From Neokomagataea tanensis (lineage in GTDB: Bacteria; Pseudomonadota; Alphaproteobacteria; Acetobacterales; Acetobacteraceae), in contig NZ_CP032485.1 in assembly GCF_006542335.1 (NCBI RefSeq), positions 1,002,501 through 1,066,500 of the forward strand: a stretch of DNA of 64,000 nt, written 5' to 3'. Position 1 is the stretch's first letter, and each line of letters opens with the position of its first letter. Of the stretch, positions 45,885-50,540 are shown one piece after another. Below the pieces are notes generated by a model. The model ran no database searches and had not been told where the DNA came from. It was given only the letters and a program-made list of their open reading frames with translations. The position numbers and the translations under genes are program-made.

Positions 45885-46582
45885 TTTTTGCCCTGACTGG
45901 TAATAACAGTTTCAACCAAGGGGGCTAACTCAGATAAATGCGCTATCCGCACGAAGCCAGGTTGTGGCCAAAAAGACGGTAATGGTTGCCCCTCATCTCG
46001 GAGCAAGATGCAACTCATACCGGCACGCCACGCGGCCTCCGCACCTGGATCACTATCCTCAATAACAAGGCAGTTTTCTGGCGCTCGTCCCTCTTGTTCT
46101 GCTGCGTACAGATAGACGGCAGGTGACGGCTTGGGTTGTTTCATGTCAGTTGCTGAATGAATACGGTTTTCCGGGAAAAAACCTGTCATTCTTGTTCGTG
46201 AAAACTTAGCTTCCATTTCTTGAATAGAAGAATTTGATCCAACACGAACCGGCATTCGCAAACGCCGAATTTCTTCTAGCATTTCTACAGAACCACTTAC
46301 AGGTTCTGCCATTTTTTCCATTAAGCGTACAAGATTTTCACGCAAAATGAGCGCCGTATTTTCTGGTAATTTACGGTCCAGTTCGTGCTCCAGATCGCGC
46401 ACAACATCAGGCAAGGCCATCCCTACGAAACGCTTATGGGCCTCTTCATCGGTGAGTTCCAGCCCCAGACTACGGGCATATTGCGCCGTAGCCTGACACG
46501 AAGCCACCTCACTATCGACAAGGACACCATCACAATCAAAAATGATGAGTTCCAAACGTCCAGAAGGGTCTAATGCTGTCAT
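45878..46582 (-). CDS. HAD family hydrolase (phosphatase)
   Basis: HAD phosphatase of 234 residues, phosphoglycolate phosphatase/beta-phosphoglucomutase-like. Motif I is FDCDGVLVDSE (nucleophile Asp), motif II is the Ser in VGSNSS, motif III Lys in KQPKPSP, and motif IV IEDSDPGAEAA. It overlaps both hemE (4 bases) and hemJ (7 bases). Small-molecule substrate unknown. Confidence 0.93.
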   Translation of the reverse strand: MTALDPSGRLELIIFDCDGVLVDSEVASCQATAQYARSLGLELTDEEAHKRFVGMALPDVVRDLEHELDRKLPENTALILRENLVRLMEKMAEPVSGSVEMLEEIRRLRMPVRVGSNSSIQEMEAKFSRTRMTGFFPENRIHSATDMKQPKPSPAVYLYAAEQEGRAPENCLVIEDSDPGAEAAWRAGMSCILLRDEGQPLPSFWPQPGFVRIAHLSELAPLVETVITSQGKKW

Positions 46583-47628
46583 AGAGACCTTACCGCTGCC
46601 ACCAATTCTGCCACATGTTCAGGCGGTGTATGCTGCATTACGCCGTGCCCGAGGTTAAAGACATGGGGCCGATGACGCAAGGAATCCCGAATAGCCTGAG
46701 CTTCCTGAACAAGGGCCTCACCACCTGAAAACAATATGGTTGGGTCTAGGTTACCTTGCAATGTGACATGTGGCGCGTGTTGATCGAGCAAAGCAGCAAT
46801 CTGTACCGGATCTGCGCTCGTATCCAAAGCGAGAGTACCAACGCCAGTTTTAACGGCATATTCGACAGCCATAACCCCAGCCAAGCGCGGGAAACCAACA
46901 ACAGGAATATGCGGATACCGGTCGTTAAGCAGGCTCACAATTTTGCGCGTTGGTTCAATAACTGCACGCCTGAAAGCTGATGGAGGCAATAAACCTGCCC
47001 AAGAATCAAATAACATAACTGCTTGAGCGCCAGCTTCTATCTGACCAAAAAGCATTTCTGCGGTTTGATTAACCAAAAGGTCAATCAAACGGTCAAAAAC
47101 GAGTGGCTCCTCCATCATCATTTTTCGCGTAATTGCAAAATCTCTGGAGCCACTACCTTCGACCATGTAGCACGCTACTGTGAAGGGACTTCCTGCGAAG
47201 CCAATAAGAGTTGTTTGCTCAGGTAGGGATTTTGTCAAACGGGTCAATGTTTCGCGGATTGGTGCCGTGACATCCGCAATGCGTTTTGGATCAAGGCGCT
47301 TTAGGTCTTCCTCGGAACGAATAGGCTGAAGAATAGGCCCTTTTCCCTCAACAAACTCAAGCGACTGCCCCATAGCCCAAGGCAGAATGAGAATGTCCGA
47401 AAAAAGTATGGCTCCATCCATGCCGTAACGGCGGATTGGCTGGAGTGTCAGCTCTTCTGCAATGTCAGGCGTTGTGCACCGCGTCAAAAAGTCAGCTTGT
47501 GCCCTCAAAGCTCTAAATTCTGGCAAATAACGCCCTGCTTGGCGCATCAACCAGAGTGGAGGCGGCCATAATGCTTCGCCCTTAAGTGCACGAAGAAGAG
47601 GTTTTTGAGAGGATGCTGAAGCAGTCAC
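46579..47628 (-). CDS. hemE: Uroporphyrinogen decarboxylase
   Basis: HemE, 349 residues, decarboxylates uroporphyrinogen III to coproporphyrinogen III. The signatures PLWLMRQAGRYLPEFRALR (substrate arginines) and GFAGSPFTVACYMVEG are present, with catalytic Asp in FSDILILP. GTG start 47628. It is the first gene of hemE-HAD-hemJ and directly adjoins the proposed replication origin, as hemE does in Caulobacter. Confidence 0.97.
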   Translation of the reverse strand: MTASASSQKPLLRALKGEALWPPPLWLMRQAGRYLPEFRALRAQADFLTRCTTPDIAEELTLQPIRRYGMDGAILFSDILILPWAMGQSLEFVEGKGPILQPIRSEEDLKRLDPKRIADVTAPIRETLTRLTKSLPEQTTLIGFAGSPFTVACYMVEGSGSRDFAITRKMMMEEPLVFDRLIDLLVNQTAEMLFGQIEAGAQAVMLFDSWAGLLPPSAFRRAVIEPTRKIVSLLNDRYPHIPVVGFPRLAGVMAVEYAVKTGVGTLALDTSADPVQIAALLDQHAPHVTLQGNLDPTILFSGGEALVQEAQAIRDSLRHRPHVFNLGHGVMQHTPPEHVAELVAAVRSL

Positions 47629-48052
47629 ATCTAGAGCCTTTTTATGCAGTTTCAGAGGAGAACAGCGAATTCATAGCGCTCACTAACCATGAATAATAAA
47701 AGAAAGAAATCCTGTTGGGATTATAGAACCCTGTGGTACTTGGGGTACCCGGCTTTCAGAGAATGTACCCCAGCTTTTGCACAGTGTGTACAACTCTGTC
47801 GCCTAAGGATAAAGCGGGCTGTATGATTCTATCCCGATTTACCCACAGAAGGCCTGTGTACAATCCCCACAGGATGGAGGTGTACCCATTCATCCCCAGT
47901 ACTCGGTACCTTCCTGTGGTAAGGCAGTACCGTCCCCATGTACCCCAGTACTCGAACGCAGTGCTGACAGGTGTATAAACATGTCCAAGCCCGATTCCCA
48001 ATACAGGTCCCACTTCGCTGATCGGGACTGCGCTAGAGCAGGAGGCCGATTT
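47629..48052. other. Candidate chromosomal replication origin (oriC)
   Basis: A 424-base non-coding region upstream of hemE. DnaA-box-like 9-mers (consensus TTATNCACA): TTGTACACA on the minus strand at 47785-47793 and 47855-47863, TTACCCACA at 47839-47847, TTATACACC on the minus strand at 47970-47978, each one mismatch. TGTACCCCAG is repeated at 47764-47773 and 47939-47948; CCCCAGTACTCG occurs twice. GATTC (GANTC) sites lie near 47825 and 47993. AT-rich bases 47680-47725 could be the unwinding element. Position next to hemE and a base-skew switch support the call. Confidence 0.65.
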
Positions 48053-49570
48053 TTAATGATCATAGCCATAATGGTGACCATGTGGGCCTGCATGGTGCGG
48101 TACGCCATGCCCAGCGGTCGTAATTTTCGCTAGTAACGGATAGGCAAAGCGGTAACGCTCTTGAGCATGGGTGTAAGCTTCCACCAACTCCGGGATGGGC
48201 GAGATTGTTTCAGAACGCTCGGGTGGTGTACAAACGTTCTCCACATCCTCTGAGCTGAGCGCCAACCGGGCAAGGCGTGCAGCGCCAAAGGCTCCGCCTT
48301 GCTCACCATGCGCTAGACGGTGCAGGGGAAGGTTGAGAACAGACGCTAGTATAGACACCCACAGGCGGCTGCGTGAGCCCCCTCCAATAACATCTGCCGA
48401 GCGAATGACTGAGCCAGCCTCTTTGAGGCCGTCTAGGGCATCTCTGAAGGAGTGAGCAACGCCCTCTAGGACGGCTTGTGTAAGTTCCTGACGGGACAGG
48501 CTGCGGTCCAGCCCGAAAAATGCCCCGCGAACACGACCATCATTGTAAGGTGTACGCTCGCCATTGAGGTAAGGTAAAAATAACGCACGGGAAGGACGCA
48601 CAACCTGCTCAGGCAATTCGTCAAGCAAAGTTGAAACATCACAATGGTTAATTTCAGCCCACCACGAAAGTGACGATGCTGCTGAAAGGGTTACGCCCAT
48701 TTGGTGCCAGCTCTGCGGTAGTGCATGGCACATTGCGTGAATGGCGCTGTCTGTATTGGGCCGGAAGCAGTCAGTTGTACACCACAACACTCCTGACGTG
48801 CCGAGCGACAAAAAAGCATTACCCGTGTGAACAGCGCCAAGCCCAATTGCTGAGGCTGCATTGTCGCCCGCACTACCGGCAATAATAGGCTGGTGTTTTA
48901 TACCCCAGCGTTTCGCTAATGCTGGTAAGAGCTGCCCAGCGATGTCTGTGCCTTCACACAAGCGTGGCATTGCATCGCGCGTGAGGCCTGTTGCTTTGAG
49001 TGCTTCATCTGACCATTCGCGTTGGCCAACATCAAGCCACAGCGTCCCGGATGCATCAGACATGTCTTCAATTTTTTCGCCGCATAACTTCAGGCGTAGC
49101 CATGCTTTGGGCAAAAGAACGGAATGAATTTTTTTGAAGATATCAGGCTCATGTTTGCGGACCCACAGCACTTTAGGCGCCGTAAAGCCCGGCATAGCAA
49201 TATTTCCGCAGACAGCACGACTTTGCGGAAAGAGCTCTTCAAATTCTTTGCACTCCTCGTCGGAGCGCACATCGTTCCACAAGATGCAAGGACGCAAGAC
49301 CTCATCAGCAGCACCCAGCAAAACAGCTCCGTGCTGTTGACCTGAAAGACCAATTGCTTTGACGTCTGCCATAGCTTCCGGGGAAGCTGCCTGAAGGCCA
49401 TCGAGAGCTTCAAGCAGGGCAGCCCACCATTGCTCCGGGTCTTGTTCGCTCCAGCCGGTTTGTGGTGACTGTACGGTCAAGGGCACCGTTTGATCGGCAA
49501 GAATATTCTGGTTCTCGTCAACCAAAATGGCTTTCAGGCCTGAGGTGCCTGCATCAATACCAATATACAT
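48053..49570 (-). CDS. xylB: Xylulokinase
   Basis: XylB, FGGY kinase of 505 residues, phosphorylates D-xylulose to xylulose-5-phosphate for the pentose phosphate pathway, central in acetic acid bacteria that oxidise pentitols. YIGIDAGTSGLKAILVD is the N-terminal phosphate motif, with SGQQHGAVLL and the C-terminal VIGGGSRSRLW. ATG 49570 begins the conserved region; a GTG at 49597 is an alternative. The C-terminus has an odd His/Gly-rich tail (HGVPHHAGPHGHHYGYDH). Confidence 0.94.
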   Translation of the reverse strand: MYIGIDAGTSGLKAILVDENQNILADQTVPLTVQSPQTGWSEQDPEQWWAALLEALDGLQAASPEAMADVKAIGLSGQQHGAVLLGAADEVLRPCILWNDVRSDEECKEFEELFPQSRAVCGNIAMPGFTAPKVLWVRKHEPDIFKKIHSVLLPKAWLRLKLCGEKIEDMSDASGTLWLDVGQREWSDEALKATGLTRDAMPRLCEGTDIAGQLLPALAKRWGIKHQPIIAGSAGDNAASAIGLGAVHTGNAFLSLGTSGVLWCTTDCFRPNTDSAIHAMCHALPQSWHQMGVTLSAASSLSWWAEINHCDVSTLLDELPEQVVRPSRALFLPYLNGERTPYNDGRVRGAFFGLDRSLSRQELTQAVLEGVAHSFRDALDGLKEAGSVIRSADVIGGGSRSRLWVSILASVLNLPLHRLAHGEQGGAFGAARLARLALSSEDVENVCTPPERSETISPIPELVEAYTHAQERYRFAYPLLAKITTAGHGVPHHAGPHGHHYGYDH

Positions 49571-49676
49571 GTGGGTGGATCCCGTTTCGGCGTTCACTGC
49601 TGCAAACGTGTTACGCTCCGTGCCCTTGAAAAGGGGATCACGATTTTTGTGATGCTGCGCACATTTACGCGATCTT

Positions 49677-50540
49677 TTAGCGGCTTTGACGTCTCAGAAA
49701 AGGGCGTGCTGTATCCCAGACTTTTAGGCCACGAAGTGCAAGATCCGCTATCCCGGGCAGTAAGCGTGGCTGCATGAGTGAAGGGTTGAAAGCTTCCATA
49801 CGCCGGGCATTTTCTCGGTAACAATCTTCCACGAAGCCGCGAAACGAGAAGCCTTCCAAGAAAAGATTGGTTTGAGTGACGGCAAAATCTTTTCCGTCAT
49901 TAGCGTCCTGGCCGCGTTTTGCCATTCCAAACAAACGCTTGGCAGCACGACTGTAGAAACGAAGGGTTTTAAGCTGTCTGCGCGTGCTACCCAGACCTTT
50001 TTGACGTTCGCGCCAAGCCATATAGTTAATAAAAAAAACGATGTGGCGCGTTTCTTCAAACATCAAGACATCGAAAATTTCGAACATTGCTTCGGGCAAA
50101 AAACGGGACTGACGCGCTGTTTTAAAAGCACCAAAGCCTAAAAAAGCGTCCAGACATTCACCAAACCCAAAATCGATAAAGGCTGTTTCAAGATCCTCGG
50201 GGAATTTTTCAAGAGGCTGAGGATGTGCGTCCAGGCCGTAGCGGTCAATCATCACTTGGATAAGTTTGGCGTGCCGTGCTTCTTCGAGGCCTTGAAGCGC
50301 GACGGCTTCCCTCACTATTGGATCGGCAATCTGTGGGGTGAAAGCGTCCACGATTGCTCCAGCCCGGCGTTCCGTGTGGTAAACTTCTTGCCAGAAAGGA
50401 ACGGCCCTCAACTTCGCGAGGTCAGTTTCCGAGAGTTCAGGCCAAGGAAGGCTGTCCGGATCGAATACCTGATGCGTATCAATGAACTGCTGGCAGAAAA
50501 AGCGCTTATGCTGCTCTGAGCCTGCTTCGATCACGGACAT
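49677..50540 (-). CDS. Ferritin-like diiron domain protein (copy 1)
   Basis: Protein of 287 residues with a four-helix ferritin-like core. Diiron-type ligands appear as EEARHAKL (about residue 97) and FEETRHIVFF (about 157), plus earlier Glu residues near YHTERRAG. Paralogous to the next gene, which is 20 bases upstream, so they form an operon. AGGAGG precedes the ATG. I recognise the fold class but not a specific enzyme; an oxygenase or desaturase-like role is possible. Confidence 0.82.
   Translation of the reverse strand: MSVIEAGSEQHKRFFCQQFIDTHQVFDPDSLPWPELSETDLAKLRAVPFWQEVYHTERRAGAIVDAFTPQIADPIVREAVALQGLEEARHAKLIQVMIDRYGLDAHPQPLEKFPEDLETAFIDFGFGECLDAFLGFGAFKTARQSRFLPEAMFEIFDVLMFEETRHIVFFINYMAWRERQKGLGSTRRQLKTLRFYSRAAKRLFGMAKRGQDANDGKDFAVTQTNLFLEGFSFRGFVEDCYRENARRMEAFNPSLMQPRLLPGIADLALRGLKVWDTARPFLRRQSR

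Follow-up and report, generated by a model that had tools for sequence, protein, structure and literature searches.

Escherichia and Bacillus start chromosome replication from origins at the dnaA/dnaN side. A second arrangement, with the origin next to hemE, is known from Caulobacter and has been predicted for Rickettsia and Wolbachia; in the accessible part of the comparative survey, the origin-bearing gap measures 404 bp in Caulobacter, 384-396 bp in the three Rickettsia listed and 402 bp in Wolbachia wMel (PMC1914354). The same part of that survey places COG1806 at the flank in Caulobacter and Rickettsia and another neighbour in Wolbachia, so COG1806 does not appear to be essential to hemE-side origins. 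In Hyphomonas, marker-frequency measurements gave a peak near hemE, according to the portion of the report at hand (PMC6650430), and Ori-Finder is described in the available text as using hemE as an indicator gene (PMC2275245).

Here, we analyzed a 64-kb window of the Neokomagataea tanensis chromosome (C1:1002501-1066500 of the 2,477,279-bp contig). It holds a 424-bp non-coding gap between hemE and a gene for an FGGY-family sugar kinase, presumably a xylulokinase, both on the minus strand; the extent of the gap, as given in the earlier note, is confirmed by the flanking reading frames. From sequence analysis we conclude with high confidence that this gap is the chromosomal replication origin (oriC), a reading that is based on the reversal of strand composition, the single match of a sequence model, a conserved core, and the position of that core at the skew turn where hemE lies elsewhere. 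Like the origins of Caulobacter crescentus (Cori), Rickettsia, Wolbachia and Hyphomonas, the proposed origin adjoins hemE and has parS sites in its neighbourhood, and its gap has the length of about 400 bp seen in the first three. In the relatives tested, maf is found on the other flank, which we take to be the gene order of Caulobacter as well. Unlike in Caulobacter, a sugar kinase gene occupies this flank in N. tanensis, and a COG1806 neighbour is missing: a search for COG1806 (PF03618) gave no match in this genome, while the control search matched Caulobacter. The gap further differs from described hemE-side origins in that it holds no full CtrA or IHF site, is dominated by a GTAC-centred array, and lies near the opposite end of the chromosome from dnaA. 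It shares with dnaA/dnaN-side origins the DnaA boxes adjoining an AT-rich stretch, whereas a distance of 1.05 Mb, or 85% of that to the antipode, separates it from dnaA itself. As hemE-side origins are known from Caulobacter, Rickettsia and Hyphomonas, the kind of origin is not new; what sets this origin apart within that kind is its lineage-specific motif array and the displacement of dnaA. The suggestion of an undescribed element therefore stands for the sequence and not for the kind, since hemE-side origins have been described in other alphaproteobacteria. Searches of an open-access library returned no mention of the GTAC array or of a dnaA far from the origin; DoriC may list some of these origins.

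Table 1. Features of the hemE-side gap and its surroundings (positions in the 64-kb window).
Feature	Position	Strand	Remark
hemE, uroporphyrinogen decarboxylase	46579..47628	-	PF01208, E 6.4e-112
Intergenic region, entire proposed origin	47629..48052		Bounded by the hemE and FGGY-kinase reading frames
AT-rich low-stability stretch, candidate unwinding element	47668..47727		Adjoins the last box
CTAACCAT, half-site-like	47683..47690	+	One mismatch from the putative CtrA half-site TTAACCAT; weak
Conserved origin core, about 224-225 bp	47730..47953	-	Runs 5'-3' on the minus strand towards hemE; inside the 277-column aligned block
CCACAGG	47730..47736	-	In many other loci belongs to a one-mismatch box such as TCATCCACA
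GGGTACCCC block, palindrome inside	47742..47750	-	From the alignment
GGGGTACATT block	47762..47771	-	From the alignment
DnaA box-like TTTTGCACA	47775..47783	+	Fifth box
DnaA box-like TTGTACACA, second copy	47785..47793	-	70 bp from the first; full 9-mer absent in most Acetobacter loci
DnaA box-like TTACCCACA	47839..47847	+	Identical word at the same place in three other Neokomagataea loci; elsewhere other near-boxes or none
DnaA box-like TTGTACACA, distal copy	47855..47863	-	All nine positions invariant in the 42-sequence alignment
GTACCGAGTAC block	47899..47909	-	From the alignments
GGGGTACATGGGGA block	47933..47946	-	From the alignments
DnaA box-like TTATACACC	47970..47978	-	Outside the conserved core; not listed there in three other Neokomagataea loci
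FGGY-family sugar kinase	48053..49597	-	PF00370 and PF02782; occupies the maf position of the relatives tested

The gap contains five DnaA boxes, each one mismatch away from TTATNCACA, and no exact copy (Table 1). Four of them had been named in the earlier note, and the box at 47775-47783 joins them. Both repeat pairs reported there were also recovered, TGTACCCCAG at 47764 and 47939 and CCCCAGTACTCG at 47894 and 47943, and neither occurs elsewhere in the window. The gap itself has 11 copies of the word GTAC, and the best 424-bp window has 12, whereas 424-bp windows average 0.66 copies and those clear of the gap hold at most 4. GTAC, which is the densest feature, had been noted only in part. 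Shuffling the gap 2000 times with dinucleotides preserved never gave as many as 11 GTAC (mean 1.82) or five DnaA boxes (mean 0.37), and gave as many as five repeated 10-mers twice (mean 0.10). In 764 kb of sequence from this genome, three of the longer GTAC words came together within 300 bp nowhere else. GANTC sites, which had likewise been pointed out, are present twice in the gap (47825 and 47993) versus 92 times in the 64-kb window, so that their enrichment is only mild. The AT-rich patch is real: by nearest-neighbour energies it forms the least stable 60 bp of the gap and falls within the weakest 1.3% of the window, which makes it a likely candidate for the unwinding site. Using consensus motifs for CtrA and IHF, we found no TTAA-N7-TTAA in the gap at up to two mismatches and no IHF site at up to one; the only trace of CtrA was the half-site-like CTAACCAT, judged against TTAACCAT, which we take to be the CtrA half-site. 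Such sites are regulatory and were not counted as needed for an origin.

The position of the gap in the chromosome was assessed by strand composition, sampled over about 31% of the chromosome. All 12 stretches sampled between C1:1 and 1,050,500 had a negative GC skew, and all 12 between 1,050,501 and 2,270,000 had a positive one; between 2,270,001 and 2,470,000 the skew was weak and mostly negative (18 of 20 ten-kilobase bins). Within the window, GC skew reached its minimum at 49,456 and keto skew at 50,180, on a flat floor extending from about 47 to 50.5 kb. The skew check that the earlier note had put forward thus came out in favour of the gap, as the sampled chromosome turns here and not at dnaA. 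All five parS-like sites of this genome (up to one mismatch) were located at C1:1,099,456-1,170,188, that is 49-120 kb from the core, one of which may be a chance match since the reversed-pattern control also gave one. parS sites were present in 12 of the 13 genomes searched (none in G061; G148 was not computed), and in 11 relatives their distance to the core was 8-123 kb. The stretch that borders the window on the left, C1:982501-1002500, has a GC content of 0.26-0.36 and is perhaps a recently acquired island.

The main competing reading, an origin at dnaA (C1:412) with the hemE gap doing something else, appears highly improbable in the light of these data. It can draw on three DnaA boxes, one of them exact and the others with one mismatch each, at 403-703 bp upstream of dnaA (L253) and on two Acetobacter genome papers that, in their accessible parts, assign oriC to a position near dnaA (PMC3751514, PMC13209655). 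Yet skew is weakly negative on both sides of dnaA, a negative-to-positive turn was found at dnaA in none of eight relatives (stretches 20-40 kb either side), and none of the five parS-like sites is near the gene. Instead, dnaA lies 8-136 kb from a dif-like site in nine of nine genomes, three of which have equally good matches elsewhere, and in one of the two papers the assigned oriC itself coincides with the skew maximum and is 51 kb away from the dif claimed there (PMC13209655, as far as the accessible text goes). The boxes upstream of dnaA are perhaps autoregulatory.

To examine the conservation of the gap, we collected hemE loci, of which 80 were kept; the 68 loci other than L042-L053 were aligned with the window (69 sequences). 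The hemE of N. tanensis is 83-85% identical to that of three Neokomagataea records. In the core alignment, 58 of 277 columns were invariant and 90 were conserved in at least 95% of the sequences. An alignment of the distal half (42 sequences) showed GTACCGAGT and TTGTACACA to be invariant and GGGGTAC to be nearly so, and GGGGTAC and GGGTACCCC occur again in the proximal half. The kilobase upstream of hemE held 6-13 copies of GTACC/GGTAC in the 68 loci, with a background of 0.08-1.74 per kb in the same loci. The repeats are accordingly kept upstream of hemE in relatives, which is the outcome that the earlier note had named as a check on its proposal. maf flanks the core in all eight relatives tested, out of 14 outside Neokomagataea; L074, L090, L093 and three others were left out, the nearest frames of the three named loci looking different or being masked by overlapping frames.

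A sequence-only model built from the 42 distal-half sequences was then run on 150 family genomes, with stricter filters for sets of more than 40 genomes. It matched once each in 46 genomes, including once in N. tanensis; 41 of the matches had E values below 1e-7, and the other five (E 0.06-0.46) were counted as chance. Some of the 41 are of the same species as training sequences, while the five in which hemE lies apart from the core are not, and the Bombella/Saccharibacter group contributed no sequence to the training set. Among genomes with a hemE identity of at least 63%, 37 of 39 carried the core, compared to 4 of the remaining 111, indicating that the array marks the acetic acid bacteria and not the whole family. 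The two exceptions, G061 and G039, have a hemE as close as that of core carriers, yet gave no model match to the core.

In 36 of the 41 core genomes, the core has the orientation of hemE and is positioned 156-293 bp upstream of it, as would also be expected of a hemE control region (promoter, leader or repressor array). The other five (G030, G090, G104, G135 and G145), all of Bombella/Saccharibacter type, have the core 20-26 kb away from hemE and provided the strongest test, albeit an unplanned one. In all five, the core is intact, with both TTGTACACA copies and most GTAC words; the GTACCGAGT block of the G090 core (L149) deviates. In each of these genomes, the change from negative to positive skew falls at the core, and hemE resides inside one arm. 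In 4-kb bins, G104 shows -0.08 left of the core and +0.10 right of it and is still positive around hemE, with about 5 kb just left of the core unbinned. A stretch with an AT content of 65-66% comes after the core in the three of the five that were checked. Four of the five belong to the 12 Bombella/Saccharibacter-group loci L042-L053, of which the core search covered these four, and the kilobase upstream of hemE in these 12 contains only 0-3 GTACC/GGTAC. L045, from the same record as G090, keeps three one-mismatch DnaA boxes about 110-180 bp upstream of hemE, with the core about 20 kb away. Since the skew turn stays with the core and not with hemE when the two are separated, the core appears to mark the origin and not merely a control region of hemE. 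The separated genomes thus argue strongly against hemE regulation as the main role of the core, and we rate that role as extremely improbable, while a promoter may overlap the origin. Equally hard to credit is the parallel use of two origins, at hemE and at dnaA, for which one could cite the box cluster upstream of dnaA and a sequence-based prediction for another alphaproteobacterium, Ochrobactrum anthropi (PMC4403523, available part), against the single negative-to-positive turn of the sampled chromosome and the lack of any at dnaA. Both the dnaA-side and the two-origin readings were set aside on skew and parS.

Across relatives, the skew turn follows the core in most cases. In 20 genomes including N. 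tanensis, a negative-to-positive turn spanned the core in 14, with a weak signal in G042, G055 and G117; it was negligible in G127 and absent from the core in five. In three of these five, the turn is displaced to the hemE side, by about 40 kb in G020 and in Gluconobacter roseus (G150) and by about 25 kb in G. cadivus (G151), and in Gluconacetobacter diazotrophicus PA1 5 (G155) no turn occurred between the two stretches read. The fifth, G023 (core at C1:1874348-1874470), turns about 33 kb off on the non-hemE side, near its parS sites, as after a one-arm inversion or a shift of the origin. One-arm inversions would explain displaced turns; as skew turns at the core in Gluconobacter cerinus (G152), a local inversion of this type is likely, though unproven, in its relatives. 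When only the 8-kb flanks of hemE loci were considered (72 loci, 8 of the 80 being too short), 31 changed from negative to positive, and the right flank was higher than the left in 68. Evidence against an origin at the gap consists of the inexact boxes, a skew that does not turn at the core in 5 of 20 genomes and turns weakly in several others, the sign change in only 31 of 72 loci with 8-kb flanks, the missing core in G061 and G039, the boxes upstream of dnaA, and the lack of an IHF or full CtrA site in the gap. Taken with the skew turn, the conservation and the separated genomes, the origin interpretation of the earlier note is nevertheless supported.

Placing the origin at hemE leaves dnaA at a distance of 1,049 kb from the core in N. 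tanensis, which equals 85% of the half-chromosome. In all 12 genomes with a core in this comparison (G148 was outside the set), the position of dnaA corresponds to 0.66-1.00 of the distance between the core and its antipode. We searched 14 genomes for dif with a palindromic 18-mer at up to three mismatches and with a reversed-pattern control. The control matched in six of them (once in G064, G117 and G055, twice in G118 and three times in G148 and G036), so weak dif-like matches can be chance. The distance of 8-136 kb between dnaA and the dif-like site given above holds for the nine genomes computed, with the site on the same contig. In G011, G023 and G042, matches with equal mismatches exist elsewhere, and the one near dnaA or with a sequence common to other genomes was chosen; these three distances hence favour a dnaA near dif. 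Left out were G020, whose two matches are on contig 4 and not on the chromosome contig, G055 and G061, which have no dif-like match at up to three mismatches, and G117. The latter has two three-mismatch matches, barely above the control; its match on C1 is separated from dnaA by about 860 kb, which speaks against the reading. In G148, the best match is 7.6 kb from dnaA. The dif-like site of N. tanensis (C1:22193) is found at the edge of a zone of weak skew of about 230 kb (2.27 Mb through 0.02 Mb), which may reflect a recent rearrangement or a spread of termination, and which suggests that the terminus is a zone. The displacement of dnaA does not extend to the whole family: in two genomes lacking a core match, G089 and G134, some 180-190 kb separate the gene from hemE. 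In the acetic acid bacteria examined, then, the usual arrangement is reversed: a long distance separates dnaA from the origin, and in most cases a dif-like site lies close to the gene.

This layout bears on the published Acetobacter assignments. For the 3.26-Mb chromosome of Acetobacter cerevisiae, the accessible part of the paper puts the claimed oriC near dnaA (PMC13209655). Its position at the skew maximum and close to the claimed dif is easier to reconcile with a dnaA close to the terminus than with an origin at this place, and, judging from that part, the published oriC is probably at the wrong end of the chromosome. For the Acetobacter strain of PMC3751514, the available text places oriC near dnaA and dif opposite; this strain may not be consistent with a dnaA near the terminus.

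How might the hemE-side origin work? DnaA would bind the paired TTGTACACA boxes and their weaker neighbours and would melt the AT-rich stretch on the hemE side, from where one fork would depart to either side; the new origins would then be segregated by ParB bound to the parS sites 49-120 kb off. The DnaA of this genome carries GNRDHTTVMHAV near its C-terminus, which we take to be the canonical recognition signature for TTATNCACA-type boxes. As TTGTACACA differs from TTATNCACA by one mismatch and its distal copy is invariant in 42 sequences, binding of DnaA at TTGTACACA is likely. None of the GTAC-centred words GGGGTACA, GTACCGAGTAC and GGGTACCCC is a DnaA box, and given the canonical DnaA signature, their conservation over genera suggests a second protein. 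We are less sure that they would be the sites of a lineage-specific protein which controls or helps initiation. More speculatively, the GTAC array could be a platform for such an origin protein and the near-terminus dnaA could couple the doubling of dnaA to the end of the replication round, which together would amount to a control of initiation unlike that of Caulobacter or E. coli; we consider this combination possible and rather unlikely.

For the acetic acid bacteria, including the industrial producers of vinegar and cellulose, the core is a short, transferable origin marker. Such a marker matters where oriC has been assigned to the dnaA neighbourhood, as in the accessible parts of PMC3751514 and PMC13209655. 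In this lineage, the origin carries a conserved motif array that canonical DnaA boxes do not explain, and the initiator gene is found near the terminus; both features are directly testable in Gluconobacter, Acetobacter or Komagataeibacter.
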